Source of the DNA: Arenibacter nanhaiticus
Lineage (GTDB): Bacteria > Bacteroidota > Bacteroidia > Flavobacteriales > Flavobacteriaceae
Direction of reading: 5' to 3'
Assembly: GCF_900141935.1 (NCBI RefSeq)
Contig: NZ_FQYX01000001.1
Span: 190,786-254,785 of the forward strand
DNA length: 64,000 bases
This document shows, piece by piece, positions 33,781 to 44,712 of this stretch. Below the pieces are notes generated by a model. That model did no database searches. It saw nothing but the letters and a program-made list of their open reading frames with translations, and was not told where the DNA came from. Both the position numbers and the translations under genes were made by a program. How positions within the stretch are numbered: the first letter of the stretch is position 1; each line of letters starts with the position of its first letter.

Positions 33781-34701
33781 CTACATAAAATTATCAACTT
33801 CTTTATAGGCATTTATTACAGCCAATTCGCCTTCTTTATGAGGTCTAGAATTGCCGTGTTCCATCCCTAGAATACCGTTAAAGCCTTTGTCTTTTATAAA
33901 CTTAAAGACATTGCGGTAGTTTATCTCTCCCGTGGTAGGTTCTTTACGCCCGGGATTATCGCCTATTTGTATATAGGCAATTTCGTCCCAACTGGCTTCC
34001 ATATTCGGAATGAGGTTGCCTTCCTGAATCTGTTGGTGGTAGATATCGAACAAGATCTTACAGGCAGGAGAATCTACCGCCTTACAAATCTCATAGGCCT
34101 GTGGCGAATCTGTGAGGAAAAGTCCTGGGTGATCCCTAAAGTTTAAGGGTTCTAAAACCATGGTCAAGCCATGGGGTTCCAAAATGGCCGAGGCCTGTTT
34201 TAAACTTTCAATGACATTGGCCTGCTGGTAACCAGGCTGTAGCCGTAAATCTACATGGCCGGGTACAACGGTCATCCATTTCGCATTGACGCGTTTGGCA
34301 ACTTCTACCGATTGGCGGATATAGTCCAGAAATTCGGCTCGTTTGTCCTTGTTTCCAGAGGCCAGGTTAGGTTCTTTCCAATAGATTTCATGGGCCACAA
34401 ATACGCCCATTTCTATCCCTCTATCCTGCATGGTCTTTGCCATTTTCTCTTGTAGGGAAACGGCACGTCCGCGCATCCCATTGTCTTCAAAGGCCGTAAA
34501 ACCTTGGTCGGCCATAAAGTTCAATTGATCTATGGGGTCCTTACCGGCATGTTGTTGAAACATGCCCAAATGTGGGGCATATTTTAAATTAAAGCTGTGT
34601 TTCGCCTTTCTGAGCTCTGGCATGCCATAGGCCATAGACCCTGTAAGACCTATGGCGCCGCTAGAAAGGGCGGTTTTCTGAATAAAATCGCGTCTTTTCA
34701 A
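33781..34701 (-). CDS. exported hydroxypyruvate isomerase-like TIM-barrel protein
   Basis: This 306-residue protein has a twin-arginine-type signal (MKRRDFIQKTALSSGAIGL) and an AP-endonuclease-2/xylose-isomerase-like TIM barrel. Likely metal-ligand segments are MVLEPLNFRDHPG, ILFDIYHQQI, YIQIGDNPGR and GILGMEHGNS. It resembles hydroxypyruvate isomerases, but in sugar clusters such proteins often act on keto-sugars. It is the last gene of the operon with the GMC oxidoreductase, 12 bases after subunit 3, so it probably works on the product of that dehydrogenase in the periplasm. Confidence 0.87.
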   Translation of the reverse strand: MKRRDFIQKTALSSGAIGLTGSMAYGMPELRKAKHSFNLKYAPHLGMFQQHAGKDPIDQLNFMADQGFTAFEDNGMRGRAVSLQEKMAKTMQDRGIEMGVFVAHEIYWKEPNLASGNKDKRAEFLDYIRQSVEVAKRVNAKWMTVVPGHVDLRLQPGYQQANVIESLKQASAILEPHGLTMVLEPLNFRDHPGLFLTDSPQAYEICKAVDSPACKILFDIYHQQIQEGNLIPNMEASWDEIAYIQIGDNPGRKEPTTGEINYRNVFKFIKDKGFNGILGMEHGNSRPHKEGELAVINAYKEVDNFM

Positions 34702-34713
34702 TGTCTTTTCCTA

Positions 34714-35361
34714 TTAAATTGACCAGGCTTTGCCCTGGGTTAACTCATTTAAATCGCCACAGCTAATATATTCACCGGGGACCGGCAAATAGGCAAGCAC
34801 ATTTTCGCCAACATATTCCGAGGATTTATAGGCCCAAATAGTCAAACCTCTATGGTTATTGGCAAAAGCAAACCTAGATAGTTCATCGTCTAGTTCGGCA
34901 GCCTTACCTTCTTTAATCGCTTCCGTATAGGAGGAGATCAGTTCCATATTATTAATCTCTTCTTCCTTGGTTATTTTTAGGGCTTTGGCCAAAATCGGTT
35001 CTAGATCGGCAGGCTCTAGTTCGGCCATGGTTTCCTTTTTAGAATCTACCAGGGCTTTTTCCAAAAACTTGCCCATGCTCATTTTAAAAATAGCTTGTTG
35101 CTCCGGTTCCATCACCTCCTGGGCAAAACGGTCTATAAAGATATGTACGTTTACCTCGGTGGCGGAAGGGGTATCGGTTTTGGGCAATATGATATCTACC
35201 AAGTGGGCAAGAGCATTTCCTGCGTCTTGGCTAAGGAAGGTCGGTGTCCATGTAATGGCCTTCTCTTGTTTACAACTTTGTACCAGGCTTAATAGGGTTG
35301 GGGTTGCTACAACATACCCTAGGGTCAAGCCCATGTTTCTGAGTGCTTTTCTTCTATCCAT
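34714..35361 (-). CDS. gluconate 2-dehydrogenase subunit 3-like protein
   Basis: This 215-residue protein matches the gluconate 2-dehydrogenase subunit 3 family. It starts MDRRKALRNMG (twin-arginine-like) with a hydrophobic stretch and a Cys at LLSLVQSCKQ, so it may be a Tat-exported lipoprotein. Such small subunits bind the flavin-containing GMC partner and can carry it across the membrane. Its ATG overlaps the stop of the GMC gene by one base, so stoichiometric synthesis is expected. Confidence 0.9.
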   Translation of the reverse strand: MDRRKALRNMGLTLGYVVATPTLLSLVQSCKQEKAITWTPTFLSQDAGNALAHLVDIILPKTDTPSATEVNVHIFIDRFAQEVMEPEQQAIFKMSMGKFLEKALVDSKKETMAELEPADLEPILAKALKITKEEEINNMELISSYTEAIKEGKAAELDDELSRFAFANNHRGLTIWAYKSSEYVGENVLAYLPVPGEYISCGDLNELTQGKAWSI

Positions 35362-37073
35362 TATAAGGTTCCTTTTTTAAGTTCTTTTGCGGCGTGGTTG
35401 GCAGCTCTTGCGGTAAAGGCCATGTAAGTAAGGGAAGGGTTTACACAACTGGCAGAAGTCATAAAAGCCCCATCGGTTACATATACATTTGGTACGGCGT
35501 GTACTTGGTTATAGCCGTTAAGTACAGATGTTTTAGGATCTCTACCCATTCGCGCGGTACCCATTTCATGGATCCCCAATCCAAGGGCACCCGGATTGTC
35601 ATAGGCCTTTACGTCCCTCATTCCTGCCTTGGTAAGCATGTCTACGGCATTCTGTTTCATGTCTTCGCGCATCTTCCATTCGTTTTCCTTGAACTCCGCG
35701 TCAAAGGTTACTGTAGGCAAGCCCCAGTCGTCCAATTTGTCGTAGTCTAAGGTCATTCTGTTTTCTTGGTATGGCAACACTTCTCCAAAGCCCATCATTC
35801 CAAAGGTCCATCCCCCCGGCTTTAAGATCGCCTCTTTTAAGTCCTTGCCATACGATAGTTCTGCGACAGACTCTTCCCAATCACCTCTGCTGGCTCCCCC
35901 CTGATAGCCAAAACCACGGAGGTAATCCTTTGTATCCGAATCGCCGCCTAAATTTTTAAACCTGGGAATATAGATCCCATTGGGTTTTCTTCCTTTGTAG
36001 TACTTGTCTTCAAAGCCATCAAATTTCCCCGAAGCTCCAACACCTAAATGGTGGTCCATAATGTTTCTTCCCAATTGGTCAGAATCGTTGCCCAATCCGT
36101 TAGGAAAACGATCAGATTTGGACTGCATTAAGATAGAGGTAGAGGCAATGGCAGAAGCACATAAGAAAATAACTTTAGCTTTAAACTCAAAGGTTTCTTT
36201 GGTTACACGGTCTATTACCTTCACCCCTGTTGCCTTTTTAGTATTTGGATCGTAAATAACCTCGGTCACAATAGAATCTGGTCTAAGGGTCATGTTGCCG
36301 GTCCGTTCCGCAGCGGGCAGGGTAGAAGAAAGGCTGCTGAAGTAAGCTCCAAAAGGACAACCGCGCATACAGCGGTTTCTGTACTGGCACTTGCTTCTTC
36401 CTTCAAATTCCTTGTTGCCGGTGATATGGGCAACACGGCCCGCGGTAACGACTCTCCCGTCAAAATTTTCAGCAACTTTTTCCCGGAAATGCTGTTCCAC
36501 ACAGTTCAGTTCCATCATCGGCAAAAATTGGCCATCGGGCAATTGTGGCAATCCTAAGTTTTCGCCACAAACCCCTATATAGGATTCTACCTTGTCGTAC
36601 CAAGGAGCAATGTCCTTATAACGAACAGGCCAGTCTACGGCAATGCCTTCTTTTTTATTGGCCTCAAAATCCATCTCGCTCCAGCGGTAGCTATGGCGCC
36701 CCCACTGTAGGGAACGGCCCCCGAGGTGGTACCCTCTCATCCAGTCAAAACGCTTGGTTTCGTTATAGGGGTGTTCTAGGTCGTTGACAAACCACTGGTT
36801 GTGTTGGGCTTTTACGGTATATCCCGTCCTTGCTTGTTTTAGTTGTTTTGCTTTTTCTTCTCTAGACAACTCGCCATTATTAGGAAAATCCCAGTCGTCC
36901 ATATTCGCTGTCGTATAATCATTGATGTGGGTCACCATTCTTCCTCGTTCCAAAACCAAGGTTTTTAAGCCGTTTTCACATAATTCTTTGGCGGCCCAAC
37001 CTCCGCTGATGCCCGTGCCCACTACGATTGCGTCGTAGCTCTCCTGCTCTTCGTTATAATAAAATTTGCTCAT
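35361..37073 (-). CDS. GMC-family FAD oxidoreductase, probable glycoside 3-dehydrogenase large subunit
   Basis: This 570-residue flavoprotein has the FAD Rossmann motif GTGISGGWAAKE (residues 19-30), a cysteine-containing segment CxYRNRCMRGCPFGAYFSS, and the C-terminal GIHEMGTARMG and CVNPSLTYMAFTARAANHA motifs with the catalytic His/Asn region. It resembles large subunits of gluconate, sorbitol and glucoside-3-dehydrogenases. It has no signal peptide of its own and probably travels with the Tat-tagged subunit 3 encoded next. I infer oxidation of a glycoside at C3; the substrate is not shown. It heads the leftward operon and is divergent from a lipoprotein isomerase. Confidence 0.9.
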   Translation of the reverse strand: MSKFYYNEEQESYDAIVVGTGISGGWAAKELCENGLKTLVLERGRMVTHINDYTTANMDDWDFPNNGELSREEKAKQLKQARTGYTVKAQHNQWFVNDLEHPYNETKRFDWMRGYHLGGRSLQWGRHSYRWSEMDFEANKKEGIAVDWPVRYKDIAPWYDKVESYIGVCGENLGLPQLPDGQFLPMMELNCVEQHFREKVAENFDGRVVTAGRVAHITGNKEFEGRSKCQYRNRCMRGCPFGAYFSSLSSTLPAAERTGNMTLRPDSIVTEVIYDPNTKKATGVKVIDRVTKETFEFKAKVIFLCASAIASTSILMQSKSDRFPNGLGNDSDQLGRNIMDHHLGVGASGKFDGFEDKYYKGRKPNGIYIPRFKNLGGDSDTKDYLRGFGYQGGASRGDWEESVAELSYGKDLKEAILKPGGWTFGMMGFGEVLPYQENRMTLDYDKLDDWGLPTVTFDAEFKENEWKMREDMKQNAVDMLTKAGMRDVKAYDNPGALGLGIHEMGTARMGRDPKTSVLNGYNQVHAVPNVYVTDGAFMTSASCVNPSLTYMAFTARAANHAAKELKKGTL

Positions 37074-37102
37074 CTAGAAAATTGTTTAGTTAATAAATTT
37101 AT

Positions 37103-37175
37103 TAAATATAGAATTAATTATCTACATTTAAACCTTATATTTCTTGATAATACAACACTATAACGTTGTAGTTGC
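37103..37175. promoter_or_regulatory. divergent control region between GMC operon and lipoprotein isomerase
   Basis: Near-consensus -7 boxes face each way: TATATTTA on the minus strand (37103-37110) and TATATTTC on the plus strand (37136-37143). An interrupted palindrome, ACTATAACGTTGTAGT (about 37157-37172), has an AACGTT core of the type bound by LacI-family regulators. AACGTT recurs at 42009-42014 before the second sugar operon. Confidence 0.35.
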
Positions 37176-37208
37176 TCATAATCGTTAAATTAATTATTAC
37201 ACAAAAAA

Positions 37209-38198
37209 ATGAATCGTAAAAGTTTAAAAGTCAACGGATTTAAGGCGCTTTTGGCCTTGTTGTTAATCGGAGGAGTTTCTTGTAAAGAGGCCCCAAAAGA
37301 ACAGTCTAAGGAAGTTGCTGCTGAAAAAATAGCAGACAATGCCGAAACACCTTTTTTTAAATTGTCTTTGGCCCAATGGTCCATGCATAGAATGATTTCA
37401 AGTGGCGAGGTTGATCCTTACTCCTTTGCAGAAAAAGCTAAGGAATGGGGCTTTACCGGATTGGAATATGTTAGCGGATTGTACTATAAGGAGTTAAAAG
37501 CGGCTAATTTTTCTGAGGAAGCTATGGCGGCCTTTGTAGAAAAAAGTAATGCCGAAAGTAAAAAGCACGGAATGCAAAACGTTTTGATCATGATCGATGG
37601 TCAAGGAGATCTTGCTACGCCTAATGCTGCCAAAAGAAAAGAAGCGGTAGAAAACCATTACAAATGGGTCGATGCGGCTGCTGCTATGGGATGTCATTCT
37701 ATTAGAGTGAACCTTGCAGGAACAAACAAACCAGAAGAGTGGATTGCAAGTTCTGTAGATGGTCTAACGCAGTTGGCTACGTATGCCAAAGAGAAAAACA
37801 TCAACATTTTGGTAGAAAACCATGGAGGTCTTTCTTCTGATGCTTCAAAATTGGCCGAAGTAATGAGCAAAGTAAATATGGATAACTGTGGTACGCTACC
37901 AGATTTCGGGAATTTCTGTGTAGAAAGAGACCAAACAGGTTGTACCAAAGAATATGATTACTACAAGGGTGTAAGCGAGTTAATGCCTTATGCTAAAGCA
38001 GTAAGTGCAAAATCGCATGATTTCGATGCCGAAGGTAACGAGGTGAAATTAGATTATGCTAAACTTCTTAAGGTCGTAAAAGACGCTGGGTATACTGGGT
38101 ATATTGGAGTTGAATACGAAGGAGGAAGATTGAGTGAAGAAGAAGGTATTATAGCTACTAGAGATTTATTGGTAAAGGCCGCTAAAACTCTTAAATAA
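37209..38198 (+). CDS. lipoprotein sugar phosphate isomerase/epimerase-like TIM barrel
   Basis: This 329-residue protein has a lipoprotein signal (LALLLIGGVSC, acylated Cys25), a short linker, then a xylose-isomerase-like TIM barrel. Metal-site segments include INILVENHGG, GTLPDFGNFC, VSAKSHDFD and YIGVEYEGG. It is probably anchored in the periplasm and acts on a sugar or keto-sugar, not a phosphate. It is divergent from the GMC operon and has a strong terminator, so it is a single-gene unit in the same sugar cluster. Specificity is unknown. Confidence 0.88.
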   Translation: MNRKSLKVNGFKALLALLLIGGVSCKEAPKEQSKEVAAEKIADNAETPFFKLSLAQWSMHRMISSGEVDPYSFAEKAKEWGFTGLEYVSGLYYKELKAANFSEEAMAAFVEKSNAESKKHGMQNVLIMIDGQGDLATPNAAKRKEAVENHYKWVDAAAAMGCHSIRVNLAGTNKPEEWIASSVDGLTQLATYAKEKNINILVENHGGLSSDASKLAEVMSKVNMDNCGTLPDFGNFCVERDQTGCTKEYDYYKGVSELMPYAKAVSAKSHDFDAEGNEVKLDYAKLLKVVKDAGYTGYIGVEYEGGRLSEEEGIIATRDLLVKAAKTLK

Positions 38199-38226
38199 GC
38201 CTTCAGATTTTGAAGCGATATTTTTA

Positions 38227-38272
38227 AATCGGTTTTTTGACCCCAATTAATATTGGGGTCAAAAAACCGATT
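38227..38272. terminator. 21-bp perfect bidirectional hairpin
   Basis: AATCGGTTTTTTGACCCCAA (plus T) pairs without mismatch with its complement over the loop TAAT. The stem is much longer than usual terminators and carries T6 runs within both arms. Confidence 0.85.
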
Positions 38273-38275
38273 CAT

Positions 38276-38321
38276 CTTTATAAGGACAAACAACTGGGCT
38301 AAGGTCAATGTCCTTATAAAG
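38276..38321. repeat. 13-bp perfect inverted repeat (stem-loop)
   Basis: CTTTATAAGGACA (38276-38288) and TGTCCTTATAAAG (38309-38321) flank a 20-base loop, four bases after the terminator. No T run follows on either strand, so it is not a simple terminator. Confidence 0.8.
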
Positions 38322-38620
38322 AACACCCAAAAGGTTATTAATTGCTATGCAAAGCGAATTAGGAGGCAAGTACAGGATTCCAATGATTTATTTATCAAAA
38401 TGAAATCAATATTTTTGGAATTATGATAGATGTTGATACTTTTGATCCTAGTTCGAAAGATGCATATTGAGTTATTGATATATCCAGAATCTTAAAAGGA
38501 GATATATTAATTTTGGGGAGACATCCTTCAACGAGTGGTAGGATCCAAATAAAAAAAGTAGTAGATACACTTTTTTTATTTGGACATATTTTTAAAAACG
38601 ATAAACATATCTAGAAAAGC

Positions 38621-39850
38621 ATGAAACTAAAGATTAAAATGCAATTGTCATTTATGATGTTCCTCGAGTTTTTTATTTGGGGAGGATGGTTTGTAACCTT
38701 GGGAACATTTTTAGACAAAAACCTAAGTGCCAATGGCGGAGAAATAGGGATGGCCTTCTCTACCCAATCTTGGGGAGCCATTATAGCTCCTTTTATTATT
38801 GGATTGATAGCAGACCGTTATTTTAATGCAGAGCGCATATTAGGAGTCTTGCATCTTCTGGGAGCAGTACTAATGTATCAAATGTATACCGCCGTCGATT
38901 TTGAAAGCTTTTATCCCTATGTATTGGGGTATATGATTTTATATATGCCAACCTTGGCCTTGGTAAACTCCATTTCCTTTAACCAAATGAAAAATCCAGC
39001 CAAGGAATTTTCATTTATTAGGGTGTTCGGAACCATTGGATGGATCATAGCCGGACTGATCATTAGTTATGTTTTTCTTTGGGATTCTGAAGCATCTAGA
39101 GAGGCCGGAATGTTAAAAAACACATTCTTAATGGTGTCTATTGCTTCTTTATTGTTGGGTCTATTTAGTTTTACACTTCCTAAGACTCCTCCGGTAGTAG
39201 CAAAAGACGAAAAGGTTTCTATAGGTAGTATTCTAGGGCTAGACGCCTTAAAGCTGTTAAAGGACAGAAACTTTTTAATCTTCTTTATATCTTCTATCCT
39301 TATCTGTATTCCATTGGCATTTTATTACCAAAATGCAAATCCGTTCTTATCGGAAATAGGGGTGGATAACCCAACAGGGAAAATGACTATAGGACAGGGG
39401 TCAGAAGTGTTGTTTATGTTATTATTGCCATTCTTTTTTAAGAGATTTGGTTTTAAAAAGACCCTGATCGCAGGTATGTTGGCCTGGACGGTAAGATACC
39501 TTCTATTTGCCTATGGAAATGAAGGGGATTTGGCCTTTATGCTTATCTTGGGGATTGCATTGCACGGAATTTGTTACGATTTCTTCTTTGTTTCTGGTCA
39601 GATATATACCGATTCCAAGGCAGGGGAAAAATATAAGAGTGCAGCTCAAGGGTTAATCACCTTGGCGACCTATGGGGTAGGAATGTTGATAGGGTTCTGG
39701 ATCGCAGGAAAAGTCTCCGATATTTATTTGGTGAGTCCAGGGGTTCACGATTGGGAAAATATTTGGATCTTCCCGGCTGTTTTTGCTTTCGGGGTGATGA
39801 TTCTGTTCACCATATTTTTCAAAAATGTTGAAGTAGAGTATAAAGAGTAA
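38621..39850 (+). CDS. NupG-like nucleoside/sugar:H+ symporter (MFS)
   Basis: This 409-residue MFS protein has twelve TM helices and matches the nucleoside:H+ symporter family (FFIWGGWFVTLGTFL near the N-terminus, IADRYFNAERILGVLHLLGA, and LYMPTLALVNSISFNQM). Bacteroidota encode many such NupG-like proteins in sugar clusters, where they probably import unusual sugars. Here it precedes a Gfo/Idh/MocA dehydrogenase by 18 bases, which suggests it brings in that enzyme's substrate, perhaps a keto-sugar. Nucleoside transport cannot be excluded. Confidence 0.87.
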   Translation: MKLKIKMQLSFMMFLEFFIWGGWFVTLGTFLDKNLSANGGEIGMAFSTQSWGAIIAPFIIGLIADRYFNAERILGVLHLLGAVLMYQMYTAVDFESFYPYVLGYMILYMPTLALVNSISFNQMKNPAKEFSFIRVFGTIGWIIAGLIISYVFLWDSEASREAGMLKNTFLMVSIASLLLGLFSFTLPKTPPVVAKDEKVSIGSILGLDALKLLKDRNFLIFFISSILICIPLAFYYQNANPFLSEIGVDNPTGKMTIGQGSEVLFMLLLPFFFKRFGFKKTLIAGMLAWTVRYLLFAYGNEGDLAFMLILGIALHGICYDFFFVSGQIYTDSKAGEKYKSAAQGLITLATYGVGMLIGFWIAGKVSDIYLVSPGVHDWENIWIFPAVFAFGVMILFTIFFKNVEVEYKE

Positions 39851-39868
39851 TTTAGAAAGAATAAGATT

Positions 39869-41005
39869 ATGAGTAAAAAAATTAAATTAGGTATTTTAGG
39901 AGGAGGAGGAGACTCCCTGATCGGAGTGCTACATAGAGTGGCTTCCTTTATTAATGATAATTATCAAATTGTAGGAGCTGTTTTTAATCCGAATTTCGAG
40001 GATAATATGGCTTTTGCAAAACAAATAGACATCCCTACCGATCGTATTTATAAGGATTTTGACACCTTGATCGAAGAGGAGTTGAAGTTGCCAAAAGAAG
40101 ATCGTATTCAGGTCTGTTCTGTACTAACACCCAACTTTTTGCACTTCCCAATGGTGAAAAAGTTATTGGAAAACGGGTTTAATGTTATCTGCGAAAAACC
40201 GATGACGACCACCTATGAGGAAGCCAAAATATTACAGGCTACCATGGAAAAGTCTAAGACGGTATTTGCCCTTACCCATACCTATACGGGCTACCCAATG
40301 GTACGTCAAATGAGGGAGATGGTGAAGGCCGGCGCAATAGGAAAGGTTCACAAGGTCGATGCTAGTTACTACCAAGGCTGGATAAATCCTATTATTCACG
40401 ACAAAGAGAAACGTGCTTCTACTTGGAGGTTAGATCCTAAAAAAGCCGGAATCAGTTGTTGTATTGCCGATATTGGGGTACATGCCTTTAATATGATTGA
40501 GTATACTACCGGGTTAAGAATAAAATCTATCCTGGCCGATTTTAATTATGTGTACGATGACAACCCAATGGATGTTGACGGAACGGTATTGGTACGTATG
40601 GACAAACACGTAAAAGGGTTGATAAGGTCTAGCCAGATTGCTACCGGAGAAGAAAACGGTCTTTCCATTGCTATTTATGGCGATAAAGGCGGATTGCGAT
40701 GGGAACAAGAAAGCCCTAACCAATTATTCGTCCTAAGTGACGATAAGCCTTTGCAAGTATACAAGCCAGGGCATGGTTATAATTCAGAATTGTCTTTGGG
40801 AGGGACCAAATTGCCTCCAGGGCATCCTGAAGGAATCTTTGATGCTATGGCCAATATCTATTTGGGCGTAGCCAGAGCTGTTCGTGGAGAAGCTTATAAC
40901 GATGGTGAATTCCCTACCATGCTGGACGGTGTCCGAGGAATGGATTTCATAGAAAGCACAGTGGCTTCCAATAAACAAGGAAATGTGTGGGTAGACCTAC
41001 ACTAA
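39869..41005 (+). CDS. cytoplasmic Gfo/Idh/MocA-family dehydrogenase
   Basis: This 378-residue protein has an N-terminal NAD(P)-binding Rossmann fold (LGILGGGGDSLIGV), the catalytic-lysine motif CEKPMTTTYEEAK, and a C-terminal domain with ADIGVHAFNMIEYTTG carrying the usual His. It has no signal peptide, unlike the homologue at 12692-14116. Enzymes of this type reduce or oxidise sugars, including 3-keto-glucose. It follows the MFS transporter by 18 bases, so uptake and conversion are probably co-expressed. It ends at a palindromic terminator. Confidence 0.92.
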   Translation: MSKKIKLGILGGGGDSLIGVLHRVASFINDNYQIVGAVFNPNFEDNMAFAKQIDIPTDRIYKDFDTLIEEELKLPKEDRIQVCSVLTPNFLHFPMVKKLLENGFNVICEKPMTTTYEEAKILQATMEKSKTVFALTHTYTGYPMVRQMREMVKAGAIGKVHKVDASYYQGWINPIIHDKEKRASTWRLDPKKAGISCCIADIGVHAFNMIEYTTGLRIKSILADFNYVYDDNPMDVDGTVLVRMDKHVKGLIRSSQIATGEENGLSIAIYGDKGGLRWEQESPNQLFVLSDDKPLQVYKPGHGYNSELSLGGTKLPPGHPEGIFDAMANIYLGVARAVRGEAYNDGEFPTMLDGVRGMDFIESTVASNKQGNVWVDLH

Positions 41006-41031
41006 AAGCTATACCGCTTAATTTTTAAATA

Positions 41032-41061
41032 AATAAGGCCGTCTGTACAGACGGCCTTATT
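41032..41061. terminator. perfect palindromic bidirectional terminator
   Basis: AATAAGGCCGTCTGT is followed directly by its exact complement, giving a 15-bp palindrome between convergent genes. T runs are short. Confidence 0.75.
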
Positions 41062-41082
41062 GCATATTGGACCTATAGAGCG

Positions 41083-41541
41083 TTAAAATACTTTTTCGAA
41101 CTCTTGGCAAACGACAATCATACTCTCCTTCGGGACTTTATTAAAGGGTTTCAATTCTTCAGAAAATCGCTCCCAAGTGGCCTTTTTCCATGCTTCTAAA
41201 CTGTGATCGTCTATGGCTTCTTTTAAGGCGTAGTCCTTAGTGATGCTATAAAAAGGTTTTAACTGTACCGCAGTAGTCCTTACAATACATTGAGCCTTTC
41301 CTTCCCAATTAGTTATCACCATAAAGGATCCGATTTTTGGCAAAGACTCCTTACGGTGTTGTAGCCCTAGAAGGGAATAGGTGGTCGCTTTTTTAATTTG
41401 GTCAAGGACAAGGGCGGTACTCCTATTGGCTTCTAATTCAGTATTGCAAAAGTGTAATACTTTTGGGGGGTCTACAAAAGCGTATTGCAGGTGGGCGTCC
41501 AAAAAATCGCCCCACATATGTCTGGCCGAACTGTTTTCCAT
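41083..41541 (-). CDS. ASCH-domain protein
   Basis: This 152-residue protein matches the ASCH family (PUA-like fold): the N-terminal ARHMWGDFLDAH, the KATTYSLLGLQHRKESLPKIGSF segment and VVCQEFEKV at the C-terminus. ASCH proteins are thought to bind RNA or hydrolyse modified nucleosides such as N4-acetylcytidine. It lies alone, convergent with the dehydrogenase gene, and has no evident link to the surrounding sugar genes. Confidence 0.85.
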   Translation of the reverse strand: MENSSARHMWGDFLDAHLQYAFVDPPKVLHFCNTELEANRSTALVLDQIKKATTYSLLGLQHRKESLPKIGSFMVITNWEGKAQCIVRTTAVQLKPFYSITKDYALKEAIDDHSLEAWKKATWERFSEELKPFNKVPKESMIVVCQEFEKVF

Positions 41542-42037
41542 TAAGAAGATTTACATTAATTAATAATTTCTTATGTTATTTGATCCATACCATTAGCTGT
41601 TTTTTTATTTAAATTTAAGCTATCATGGTATTTCGAACTTATAAGCGGCAATGACTCTTAACTTCTATGTTCTCAATAAACAAGCAGTGGAAAAACGATG
41701 GTTTCGAGGCCGATCCGATGGTTGTTCCCGTATTCCTGTTGCTTATTCATTAGGTTATATTCTTATATTTCTATAGTAATTCCTATATTTATAACGTCTC
41801 TCCATTTGGGGGTATTTTGAAAGCTATTGATTTTAAATATAAGGTTTATTTTTTGATCTTATCAAGACAGATTTTCACATGTTCTATTCATAATACTAAT
41901 GATTTAATTTTTTTGGATAGATTTCAATAATAGTGTACATATAAAATGGGATTAATTCTATAACAATATGGTCTAGGCCATGGGATGTAGTACCCCTATA
42001 GCAATACAAACGTTAATTATAACAATAAATTATATAG
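41542..42037. other. 496-base upstream region of the second sugar operon
   Basis: No gene is seen. The region is AT-rich and holds several TATATTTA-like sequences (near 41790-41797) and an AACGTT motif at 42009-42014 close to the start of the isomerase gene. No promoter can be fixed. Confidence 0.5.
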
Positions 42038-43090
42038 ATGAAAACAATTAAGGGGCCTGCGGTTTTTTTAGCACAATTTGTAGACGATAAAGCACCGTTT
42101 AATTCTTTGGATGGCATTTGTAAATGGGCATCCGACTTAGGGTATAAAGGTATACAAATACCTACATGGGTCGACTATCTTATAGATTTGGACAAGGCGG
42201 CAGAAAGCCAGACGTATTGTGACGAACTAAAGGGAAAGGTAAATTCGTATGGTTTGGAAATCACGGAACTTTCTACCCACCTTCAAGGTCAATTGGTCGC
42301 GGTACACCCTGCATATGATCTAATGTTCGATAATTTTGCGCCAGATGCGGTAAAGAACAATCCAAAGGCACGTACGGAGTGGGCGGTAGAAGTGGTAAAA
42401 AAGGCAGCAACGGCCAGTAGGAGGTTGGGGATTACTGCCCACGCAACCTTTTCTGGGTCTTTGCTATGGCATACCATGCACCCTTGGCCACAACGTCCTG
42501 CAGGTTTGGTAGAAATGGGCTTCGAGGAATTGGCAAAGAGATGGTTGCCGATCTTGGATCACTTCGATAAGGAAGGTGTTGATGTCTGTTATGAAATACA
42601 CCCAGGAGAAGACCTTCATGACGGGGATACCTTTGAGCGCTTTTTAGCAGCGACAGGAAACCACAAAAGGGTGAATATTTTGTACGATCCAAGTCACTTT
42701 GTATTGCAACAATTAGATTACATCACCTATATAGACCACTACCACGAATTCATTAAGTCGTTCCACGTAAAAGATTCCGAATTTAATCCAACTGGGAAAA
42801 AAGGTGCTTTTGGTGGCTATAACGACTGGAGCGATCGCGCTGGGAGATACCGCTCTTTAGGAGATGGTCAAATAGATTTTAAGACCATATTCTCTAAATT
42901 GACACAATACGGATGTGATGTTTGGGCCGTAATGGAATGGGAGTGCTGTATTAAGAGTCCGGAACAAGGCGCTAGGGAAGGGGCCAAGTTTATTCAGGAC
43001 CATATTATCGAAGCAACACAAAAAACCTTTGACGATTTTGCCGGAGGGGAAATAGATAAAAATGTATTAAAGAAAATACTTGGACTTTAA
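42038..43090 (+). CDS. cytoplasmic sugar isomerase/epimerase-like TIM barrel
   Basis: This 350-residue protein is a xylose-isomerase-like TIM barrel without signal peptide. Probable metal-ligand segments are VCYEIHPGED, NILYDPSHFVLQ, IKSFHVKDSEF and WAVMEWECC. It resembles sugar phosphate isomerase/epimerases found beside Gfo/Idh/MocA and DUF1080 genes. It heads an operon with two DUF1080 lipoprotein genes (21- and 26-base gaps). Activity on a 3-keto-sugar is inferred from context. Confidence 0.88.
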   Translation: MKTIKGPAVFLAQFVDDKAPFNSLDGICKWASDLGYKGIQIPTWVDYLIDLDKAAESQTYCDELKGKVNSYGLEITELSTHLQGQLVAVHPAYDLMFDNFAPDAVKNNPKARTEWAVEVVKKAATASRRLGITAHATFSGSLLWHTMHPWPQRPAGLVEMGFEELAKRWLPILDHFDKEGVDVCYEIHPGEDLHDGDTFERFLAATGNHKRVNILYDPSHFVLQQLDYITYIDHYHEFIKSFHVKDSEFNPTGKKGAFGGYNDWSDRAGRYRSLGDGQIDFKTIFSKLTQYGCDVWAVMEWECCIKSPEQGAREGAKFIQDHIIEATQKTFDDFAGGEIDKNVLKKILGL

Positions 43091-43111
43091 TTAACCTCTA
43101 ACATAAGCGAC

Positions 43112-43870
43112 ATGAAAAATTTATGGATAACAGCTTTCGTAGCGATATTGACAATAGGCTGCAAAGAAAAGACAACGAACGCTCCTAAGGAGCAGCCCAT
43201 GGAGAACGCCAATACAGAAATGTCAACAAAGCCCGATCAAGGAGAGTGGAAGGTTCTCTTTGATGGGACTAATTTTGACGCCTGGAAAGGGTATGGGCAA
43301 GAGGGTGTAGAAGATGCCTGGAAGATAGAAGAGGGGGCCATGGTTTTTTATCCTCCCAAGGAGCGTAAAGAAGGCGCCAATTACAACCTGGTATCCAAGG
43401 AAGAGTTTCGCAATTTTGTGTTGTCCATAGATTGGAAAATATCCGAAGGAGGTAACAGTGGTGTTTTTTGGGGTGTTAGGGAAATACCTAGCCTTTCCGA
43501 AGCCTACCAGTCCGGTCCGGAGATTCAGGTGCTGGATAACGAAAAACATCCAGATGCCAAAAACGGGACTACCCACCAAGCAGGTGCGCTTTACGATATG
43601 ATAGCCCCTAGTAAGGACGTAACAAACCCGGTAGGAGAGTGGAATACCTTTGTGATAACGGTAAACCACAATGCCAACCAGGGAAGCGTGGTGCTTAACG
43701 GTGAAGTTATCGTAGAATTCCCGGTAAATGGGGAGCCATGGAATGAAATGGTAGAGAAATCTAAATTCAAAGGCTGGGAGCATTTCGGGAAATATGCCAC
43801 CGGAAAAATAGGGCTACAAGACCATGGGGATATAGTTTCTTTTAAAAATATTAAAATAAAAAGTCTATAA
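43112..43870 (+). CDS. DUF1080 lipoprotein (3-keto-disaccharide hydrolase family), first copy
   Basis: This 252-residue lipoprotein (FVAILTIGC, acylated Cys17) carries one DUF1080 domain (about residues 45-250), a concanavalin-like beta sandwich. Landmarks are WKVLFDGTNFDAWKGYG, SGVFWGVREI, GPEIQVLDNEKHPDA and GLQDHGDIVSFKNIKI. Members are reported to cleave 3-keto-glycosides. Anchoring predicts periplasmic or outer-membrane action on the product of the GMC dehydrogenase. It is 21 bases after the isomerase gene and 26 before its paralogue. Confidence 0.9.
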   Translation: MKNLWITAFVAILTIGCKEKTTNAPKEQPMENANTEMSTKPDQGEWKVLFDGTNFDAWKGYGQEGVEDAWKIEEGAMVFYPPKERKEGANYNLVSKEEFRNFVLSIDWKISEGGNSGVFWGVREIPSLSEAYQSGPEIQVLDNEKHPDAKNGTTHQAGALYDMIAPSKDVTNPVGEWNTFVITVNHNANQGSVVLNGEVIVEFPVNGEPWNEMVEKSKFKGWEHFGKYATGKIGLQDHGDIVSFKNIKIKSL

Positions 43871-43896
43871 ACTGTATTGACCTCTAATAAAAAATA

Positions 43897-44712
43897 ATGA
43901 AACAAATCTATTTTATTGCCTGTGCCTTAGTCGTTTTTTCTTGTAAGGAAAAGGAGTATAAAGCAGCTGGCAACGCCAAGGAATTGGCCGAAGCTGTCCA
44001 TACCGATAAAGAGCATAAGGGCGAAGAACCCACGACTCCTGAAGGGACTGAATTTTATGAGCCGGTTCCGCCGAAGGTGCAGCCAGGAGCCAAAATTAAC
44101 GAAGCCCCAAGCGATGCTATTGTACTTTTTAATGGGGAAAGCCTAGATCAGTGGGTAAGTGCCAAAGATGGTAGCTCGGCCAAGTGGCACCTAAATAAGG
44201 ACGGAAGTATGACCGTGAACGATAAATCCGGCGATATACAGACGAAACAAGAATTTGGTAGCGTACAATTGCATGTCGAATGGAAATCTCCGGCAGACAT
44301 TCAAGGTGAAAAGCAAAGTAGGGCCAATAGCGGGGTGTTTTTACAAGGCTTGTACGAAGTACAGATATTAGACAACAACAATAACGATACCTATGTAAAC
44401 GGGCAGGTAGGGGCTATCTATAAGCAGCATGTGCCTTTAGCGATGGCATCGGTCCCTAGTGGCGAATGGAATACCTATGATATTATTTATCACGCCCCAG
44501 AGTTTAATGCGGAAGGTGAAAAAATAAAATCGGGAACCCTTACACTTCTACATAACGGTGTCTTGGTACAAGACCATGTAGAAATTAAAGGAACTACCCC
44601 ATATATTGGATGGCCTAAAAATCCACCGCACGGCAAGGGTCCCATTAAATTGCAAGACCATGGTGATAATAGCCGTGTAAGCTATCGCAATATTTGGGTA
44701 AGGGAATTATAA
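43897..44712 (+). CDS. DUF1080 lipoprotein (3-keto-disaccharide hydrolase family), second copy
   Basis: This 271-residue lipoprotein (IACALVVFSC, Cys16) has the same DUF1080 fold as its neighbour, with a longer linker after the signal. Landmarks are IVLFNGESLDQWVSAK, SGVFLQGLYEVQILDN, GQVGAIYKQHVP and IKLQDHGDNSRVSYRNIW. The two copies are clearly diverged, so they may differ in the glycoside cleaved. It is the last gene of the operon. A 12-bp inverted repeat lies 29 bases downstream. Confidence 0.9.
   Translation: MKQIYFIACALVVFSCKEKEYKAAGNAKELAEAVHTDKEHKGEEPTTPEGTEFYEPVPPKVQPGAKINEAPSDAIVLFNGESLDQWVSAKDGSSAKWHLNKDGSMTVNDKSGDIQTKQEFGSVQLHVEWKSPADIQGEKQSRANSGVFLQGLYEVQILDNNNNDTYVNGQVGAIYKQHVPLAMASVPSGEWNTYDIIYHAPEFNAEGEKIKSGTLTLLHNGVLVQDHVEIKGTTPYIGWPKNPPHGKGPIKLQDHGDNSRVSYRNIWVREL

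Follow-up and report, generated by a model that had tools for sequence, protein, structure and literature searches.

Gene content of the cluster

The window analysed here, a 64,000-nucleotide (nt) stretch of Arenibacter nanhaiticus DNA (own assembly 4.36 Mb, 99.98% complete), contains at positions 33781-44712 a cluster of genes for predicted 3-keto-glycoside metabolism. Families were assigned by a Pfam scan of the ten cluster proteins. Nine of the genes encode three AP_endonuc_2 proteins, one Gluconate_2-dh3 protein, one GMC_oxred_N/C flavoprotein, one Nuc_H_symport transporter, one GFO_IDH_MocA oxidoreductase and two 3keto-disac_hyd (DUF1080) proteins. These are the nine that a first-pass annotation had named, all present within the interval and on the strands it gave, and each scores above the Pfam cut-off of its family. 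That annotation had counted four transcription units, having overlooked a minus-strand ASCH-domain gene that lies between the Gfo and hydratase units; with this gene there are five transcription blocks. Its claim that the locus has neither a SusC/SusD pair nor a classic glycoside hydrolase holds by Pfam for the ten cluster proteins. The features are as follows.

33781-34701, minus strand: P0001, TIM barrel with a twin-arginine translocation (Tat) signal, hydroxypyruvate-isomerase / ketose-epimerase-like (Pfam AP_endonuc_2, E 1.7e-35)
34714-35361, minus strand: P0002, gluconate 2-dehydrogenase subunit 3-like small subunit with a twin-Arg signal and Cys30 (PF13618, E 5.1e-26)
35361-37073, minus strand: P0003, GMC flavoprotein large subunit, predicted glycoside 3-dehydrogenase (PF00732/PF05199)
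37154-37175: palindromic putative operator, 22 bp; its core at 37157-37172 reads ACTATAACGTTGTAGT on the plus strand and ACTACAACGTTATAGT on the minus strand
37209-38198, plus strand: P0004, TIM-barrel lipoprotein, candidate periplasmic 3-keto-glycoside β-eliminase (AP_endonuc_2; 4ovx relative)
38227-38272: perfect inverted repeat after the TIM-lipoprotein gene and before the MFS gene, terminator-like by eye
38621-39850, plus strand: P0005, NupG/LacY-like major facilitator superfamily (MFS) importer, predicted keto-sugar carrier (PF03825, E 7.8e-117)
39869-41005, plus strand: P0006, cytoplasmic Gfo/Idh/MocA oxidoreductase, predicted 3-keto-hexose reductase (Pfam GFO_IDH_MocA)
41034-41059: perfect inverted repeat after the Gfo gene, terminator-like by eye
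41083-41541, minus strand: P0010, ASCH-domain gene (PF04266, E 2e-16)
42038-43090, plus strand: P0007, cytoplasmic 2-hydroxy-3-keto-glucal hydratase relative (65% identity to 8ro4)
43112-43870, plus strand: P0008, DUF1080 lipoprotein a, 3-keto-glycoside lyase/hydrolase family (PF06439, E 1.2e-48)
43897-44712, plus strand: P0009, DUF1080 lipoprotein b, distinct subfamily (PF06439, E 5.3e-42)

Export signals were judged by eye at the N-termini. A twin arginine is present in P0001 and P0002, the latter also having Cys30, and a lipobox-like cysteine in P0004, P0008 and P0009. No export signal was seen by this inspection of the N-termini of P0003 (GMC), P0006 (Gfo) and P0007 (the third TIM barrel).

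Proposed pathway and its hydratase, cleaving proteins and reductase

The locus probably encodes a pathway that runs from the periplasm into the cytoplasm and detaches a sugar from small glycosides in the order oxidation, β-elimination, hydration and reduction, as drawn from protein families, the export signals and published relatives. The GMC flavoprotein, exported with its Tat-tagged subunit 3, would oxidize the glycosyl C3. The aglycone would be eliminated by the DUF1080 lipoproteins, the TIM-barrel lipoprotein or both, yielding a 2-hydroxy-3-keto-glycal (or, by hydrolysis, a 3-keto-sugar), and the NupG-like MFS protein would import the keto product. In the cytoplasm, P0007 is predicted to add water to the glycal, and the Gfo enzyme to convert the 3-keto-hexose, by reduction, into a hexose that enters glycolysis. 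Epimerization or isomerization of keto-sugars may fall to the Tat TIM barrel. We place lower confidence in the identity of the cleaving protein and of the imported species than in the scheme as a whole. Cleavage by oxidation and elimination is a recently recognized alternative to the classical glycoside hydrolases. The pathway type has already been described, and the window locus is a variant of it, distinguished by a cytochrome gene that was not found, by the TIM-barrel lipoprotein P0004 and by a glycolysis-type operator. The outline of oxidation, cleavage, import and reduction given by the first-pass annotation agrees with published clusters (PMC9007349, PMC10628242), but it omitted the hydration step.

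P0007, which had been labelled simply a cytoplasmic TIM barrel, is identical to 8ro4 at 227 of 350 aligned columns (65%) over its whole length (E 3.1e-163). The latter is deposited as a 2-hydroxy-3-keto-glucal hydratase, and the two have E-x-H, DPSH and HVK stretches in common. This relationship likely points to cleavage by elimination, with a glycal reaching the cytoplasm. Signal peptides are visible on the candidate cleaving enzymes but not on the hydratase, so the glycal would most likely be the transported species.

A route of the same order has been described in Agrobacterium, where hydration is the third of four steps (oxidation, β-elimination, hydration and reduction) and the evidence for the hydratase is called preliminary by the authors (PMC10628242). 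The predicted chemistry of the window cluster is that of GlycDH, AtOGE, AtHYD and Gfo, and P0007 is the counterpart with a close solved hydratase, whereas elimination is here assigned to the DUF1080 proteins and a different TIM barrel, and GlycDH is likened by description and not by sequence (PMC10628242). AtOGE (8BVK) does not appear in the sequence-match lists of P0001, P0004 or P0007, lists that leave room for a distant relation. The levoglucosan enzymes LgdA/B1/B2/C perform the same four kinds of step, with an eliminase and a hydratase of TIM-barrel type (PMC10066097). Their first oxidation is NADH-linked, unlike that proposed here, and DUF1080 and GMC genes are not described for that pathway in the available text (PMC10066097).

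Two kinds of protein are candidates for the cleavage step. The DUF1080 lipoproteins, to which alone cleavage had at first been ascribed, are indeed present as a pair, but P0004 resembles C-glycoside eliminases and has to be considered beside them. P0008 has 14 distinct solved relatives at E 0.001, P0009 has 4qhz as its sole solved match (E 2.9e-80), and the two are 30% identical to each other by blastp. The own genome has 14 DUF1080 matches on 10 contigs, with many of its DUF1080 domains lying outside this cluster and some of them two per frame.

P0004 shares 51% of 269 aligned residues with 4ovx, a structure that carries no function name. Beyond 4ovx, a profile built from 22 relatives of P0004 matched mainly C-glycoside β-eliminases (DgpB-C, AgCarB2-C2, DfgA-B and others; E 6e-11 to 2e-5), the isomerase Art22 being among the matches. 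Glu 203, Asn 204, His 205 and Asp 232 are kept in all 22 relatives, and Glu 302 in all 21 that have a letter at this position. Counted by hand, Glu 203 and His 205 fall on Glu 141 and His 143 of PuCGE, although the motif stretch alone scores only 10 bits; His 143 is the catalytic residue of PuCGE (PMC10628242). P0004 thus has the E-x-H spacing at the catalytic place together with the Asp and C-terminal Glu ligands of the C-glycoside eliminases. It also differs from them. The metal-binding histidine on strand 7 of the eliminases (H-x-K) is replaced by Ser 266, the stretch reading S266-A267-K268 in 22 of 22 relatives, and no partner small (β) subunit was found by Pfam among the ten cluster proteins. 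A predicted model of P0004 (pLDDT 87.7) superposes on 4ovx with Z 41.2, on Art22 with Z of about 29 and on several C-glycoside eliminases with Z 24.1-26.5, at 18-21% identity in the structural alignments. Since the eliminase scores are tied with those of ketose epimerases and lie below that of Art22, the fold alone gives the eliminase assignment no preference. We treat P0004 as a candidate eliminase outside the C-glycoside eliminase family proper.

The exported TIM barrel P0001 is of a different kind. Its best fold matches are 3ngf and 1k77 (both Z 28.6), followed by the 3-keto-D-glucoside 4-epimerase YcjR (Z 25.6), which is level with ketose epimerases. Glu 184, Asp 219 and Glu 281 are kept in 20 of 20 relatives and Gln 245 in 18 of 20. 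P0001 is without the E-x-H motif, having E184-P-L186 at that place, and resembles hydroxypyruvate isomerases or ketose epimerases.

For the final step, P0006 has the family expected of the reductase in the four-step pathway, as seen from Pfam and from its match to 3v5n (281 bits), an entry named merely 'Oxidoreductase'; reduction of a keto-sugar is its predicted reaction. P0006 is not a member of the BT2158 family (33.2 bits against a cut-off of 750 for NCBIfam NF058561) and has no visible signal peptide. The Bacteroides thetaiotaomicron locus BT2156-BT2160 resembles the window cluster in combining a DUF1080 protein with periplasmic 3-oxidation of glycosides, but oxidizes by means of the periplasmic dehydrogenase BT2158 (PMC9007349, PMC11300592, PMC11501099, PMC12385236).

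Oxidation module, conservation and alternative readings

The genes of P0002 and P0003 overlap by one base. P0003 matches the large subunit of fructose dehydrogenase (E 1.4e-42), and Cys 229, Cys 235 and Cys 239 align with three cysteines that ligate an iron-sulphur cluster in that enzyme. The closest named locus by P0003 is that of Arenibacter sp. 6A1, whose GMC protein is 97% identical. A second GMC/subunit-3 pair lies elsewhere in the own genome (contig C35, 35073-37364); its GMC protein, the only other one found, is 33% identical to P0003.

Genes important to Caulobacter crescentus when it uses lactose include lacABC and those for a DUF1080 protein, a transporter, two epimerases and a reductase; lacABC is important for salicin and raffinose as well (PMC9007349). 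The window cluster has the corresponding parts: a GMC large subunit with an adjoining Tat-tagged subunit 3, together with DUF1080 proteins, a transporter, epimerase-like TIM barrels and a reductase, all by Pfam. Two DUF1080 genes lie nearby in both organisms, and the likeness to lacABC/CCNA_01705 and its Bacteroidetes counterparts is drawn at the level of families (PMC9007349). Unlike the Caulobacter set, the window cluster has three TIM barrels (one of them a lipoprotein), an ASCH gene inside it, a glycolysis-type operator and no cytochrome-c gene that we could find.

The first-pass annotation had not remarked on the missing cytochrome gene. With the cytochrome of a Hymenobacter cluster as the tblastn query, no match was obtained at 1e-3 in 80 family loci, and the best hit in the window (E 0.31) lies outside the cluster. 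Three distant matches occur elsewhere in the own genome, the best being 39% identical within a 1118-residue frame. As the cytochrome c subunit is missing from these results, we do not class the cluster as a full three-component LacABC member.

The family loci were the best 80 of 201 relatives, fetched by P0003; 58 are full-length and 22 fall below full length. Subunit 3 is found in 78 of the 80, the TIM lipoprotein in 74, Gfo in 66, ASCH in 65, MFS in 60, the hydratase in 60, DUF1080a in 56, the Tat TIM barrel in 53 and DUF1080b in 49. All nine genes are together in 27 of the 58 full-length loci, and eight, leaving aside the Tat TIM barrel, in 36. Between the hydratase and ASCH genes, 40 of the 60 family loci that hold both carry a second GMC gene (65-71% identical). 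The window has at this place a gap of 496 bases (41542-42037), and the Arenibacter loci seen are likewise gapped, so that a second GMC gene was likely lost here. A recognizable remnant was sought with 47 such proteins by tblastn and rejected: of 37 rows, two reached E ≤0.1 (0.003 over 24 residues and 0.047 over 21), both largely upstream of the start Met in the query frame, and no clear scar was seen.

Flanking genes are also shared among the 80 family loci, nrdA by 49 of them and yicC by 39. Because these loci come from close relatives, 49 of them with nrdA, distant genomes give a better test. P0007 has a match at E ≤0.001 in 50 of 148 Bacteroidota genomes. We examined the neighbourhoods of all 33 P0007 matches of at least 65% identity in other genomes, 32 in number, with flanks of up to about 10 kb per side (three shortened by contig ends). 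Gfo is present in 30, MFS in 25, GMC in 18, DUF1080a-type in 16, cytochrome c in 14 and subunit 3 in 12, with Tat-TIM-like (9), DUF1080b-type (6), TIM lipoprotein (5), ASCH (2) and yicC/gmk (2) genes being rarer. We also picked five plasmid records by hand among those that gave matches (351 and 708). Hydratase, Gfo, GMC and subunit 3 occur together on the Pseudoalteromonas, Ketogulonicigenium, Croceicoccus and Hymenobacter plasmids; of these four, only the Pseudoalteromonas and Hymenobacter loci have DUF1080, and the Hymenobacter locus also has a nucleoside permease and cytochrome c. The fifth plasmid, from Catenovulum, has no hydratase but only a TIM barrel along with GMC, subunit 3 and DUF1080. 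Linkage across families and phyla, without the nrd and yicC flanks, indicates that the module is a widespread functional unit with variable parts. ASCH was considered as a part of the pathway and rejected, since it occurs in just two of the 33 hydratase neighbourhoods, both with the yicC/gmk flank. Its position inside the cluster is nonetheless kept in 65 of the 80 family loci.

Several observations, besides the altered metal site of P0004 and the cytochrome gene that was not found, speak against the proposed pathway. None of ten Pedobacter DUF1080 genes had a lactose phenotype (PMC9007349), and deletion of BT2157 or BT2158 left growth of B. thetaiotaomicron on raffinose-family sugars unimpaired (PMC11501099). 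GMC and subunit 3 occur without Gfo in 4 of the 58 full-length family loci, and GMC was not seen in 15 of the 33 hydratase neighbourhoods, so parts of the cluster can separate. P0006 and most of the hydratase-linked Gfo proteins of distant clusters share only 34-41% identity, so the reaction of P0006 may differ.

A possible, though clearly less likely, course is that periplasmic enzymes fully hydrolyse the 3-keto-glycoside, the DUF1080 proteins performing elimination and hydration in one site; the MFS protein would then import a 3-keto-sugar, and the hydratase would take up leaked glycal or run in reverse. BT2157 is described as a 3-ketoglycoside hydrolase and CCNA_01705 has been proposed to be one (PMC9007349), the Pfam family bears the name 3-keto-disaccharide hydrolase and two different DUF1080 subfamilies are present. 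A dedicated hydratase has nevertheless been kept, beside Gfo in 30 of the 33 neighbourhoods, and this would be hard to explain if no glycal entered the cell. That the GMC complex oxidizes a free sugar or polyol, as do fructose, glucose and gluconate dehydrogenases, with the cluster handling the oxidized monomer, seems improbable. The closest solved relatives of P0003 are fructose and glucose dehydrogenases and one of the TIM barrels is like ketose epimerases, but the complex is linked to DUF1080 and hydratase genes, both tied to 3-keto-glycosides, and the similar Caulobacter gene set acts on glycosides (PMC9007349). Gene order inherited vertically, with no single pathway behind it, would account for the nrdA and yicC flanks and for an ASCH gene kept without a pathway link elsewhere, but we give it very little credence, as most of the genes travel together in other families and phyla minus ASCH and those flanks.

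A palindromic putative operator shared with glycolysis genes

The divergent promoter between the GMC and TIM-lipoprotein genes contains the palindrome ACTACAACGTTATAGT (37157-37172); the GMC start lies 83 nt away from it and the TIM-lipoprotein start 36 nt. A conserved marine Flavobacteriaceae locus with a glycolysis-type operator offers a concrete way into its regulation and a testable hypothesis on what the pathway feeds, and the operator in turn points to a central-carbon regulon in this family. Places of the palindrome, written ACTAYAACGTTRTAGT, are 37157-37172 in the window, C42:97972-97987 and C35:23631-23646 in the own genome and loci L193-L242 in others. The window copy is the single exact match in the own genome. 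Sites at 0-1 mismatch are present in 25 of 75 divergent regions of related loci, the window included, at varying offsets and against approximately none in shuffled sequences; the other 50 regions have no such site.

Across 60 Flavobacteriaceae genomes, the palindrome occurs 52 times at ≤1 mismatch in 27 genomes (reversed control, 32 in 22), and 33 genomes have no site at this threshold. Neighbours of the 50 sites outside the own genome were named by likeness to representatives checked with Pfam and NCBIfam, or by eye for SusC-like genes. They are pfkA (8), a gene for an IPExxxVDY protein (8), fbaA (5), fbp (2), eno (1) and gap (1), followed by GH31 (3), GH13 (1), sugar MFS (2), SusC-like (3), LacI/SusC-like (1), GMC/TIM lipoprotein (2) and others (13); the last, at other genes or inside genes, stay in the total. 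At locus L194, the IPExxxVDY gene is followed by one for pyruvate kinase (pyk), named by eye. Placement differs sharply from that of the control: 47 of the 50 sites have a start codon within 400 nt downstream of them and two are inside frames of at least 100 codons, whereas all 22 reversed-control sites examined, those of the 32 that were obtained as loci, lie inside such frames (Fisher 1.5e-16, for sites that share kinship). Distances to the start codon cluster as well, with 20 of the 47 at 76-88 nt and 28 at 70-100 nt.

The own genome has additional sites ahead of eno (one mismatch) and of pfkA-gap (two mismatches). At two mismatches, seven places are found there, a number equal to that of the reversed control, and of these C31, C30 and probably C36 and C59 are inside genes. 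We therefore give weight only to sites with 0-1 mismatch or to those scored by a matrix, and the own pfkA site rests on the matrix. The latter was made with 25 sites at glycolysis genes in other genomes and with none from this cluster. On the plus strand of the 64-kb window it scores the palindrome at 25.9 against 5.2 for the next best place, and it gives the eno and pfkA sites 30.1 and 23.0, respectively. Among 74 related loci, the best matrix site of the whole locus falls in the divergent gap in 32, with a score above 15 in 24 of these.

Together, these observations make it very likely that part of the cluster is tied into the control of central sugar metabolism, and the palindrome has the appearance of an operator serving a global sugar regulon in Flavobacteriaceae. 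Counting against control of the entire pathway, the putative operator is confined within the cluster to the divergent GMC/TIM-lipoprotein promoter. No site within three mismatches was found in 60 hydratase upstream regions, and with no other score in the window above 5.2 we do not claim joint control of all units. The word AACCTTATAT was considered as one common to the divergent and hydratase promoters and dropped, as few relatives have it (4 of 75 and 4 of 60, respectively).

The association of sites with regulator genes points towards the LacI family, though to no particular gene. A LacI match at 1e-60 is present in 26 of the 27 genomes with sites and in 17 of the 33 without (Fisher p 1e-4, kinship included). 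In a published survey of LacI regulons, family members that control central carbohydrate metabolism are named for Firmicutes, Enterobacteria and Alphaproteobacteria; the string 'Flavobacteri' is absent from its available text (PMC4052901). The chances appear evenly balanced that, in Arenibacter and many marine flavobacteria, the glycoside pathway lies inside a global sugar-burning regulon. In such a regulon, a regulator without a name in the papers searched, LacI-type by the look of the palindrome, would act at ACTAYAACGTTRTAGT, for the most part 80-110 nt before pfkA, fbaA, pyk and eno, near gap, fbp and α-glucan genes and at the GMC/TIM promoter, and the pathway would be a central entry for glucose-containing disaccharides or glucosides whose electrons go to some acceptor different from the cytochrome of related clusters.

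Six LacI genes are present in the own genome. The one on contig C40 is the best relative (52%) of a LacI that adjoins an operator in another genome (G150), and its surroundings contain no good site, the best matrix score being 2.9. On contig C40, locus L245 looks by eye like a maltodextrin locus, with a LacI gene divergent to SusC/SusD-like genes and accompanied by β-phosphoglucomutase-, GH65- and GH13-like genes.

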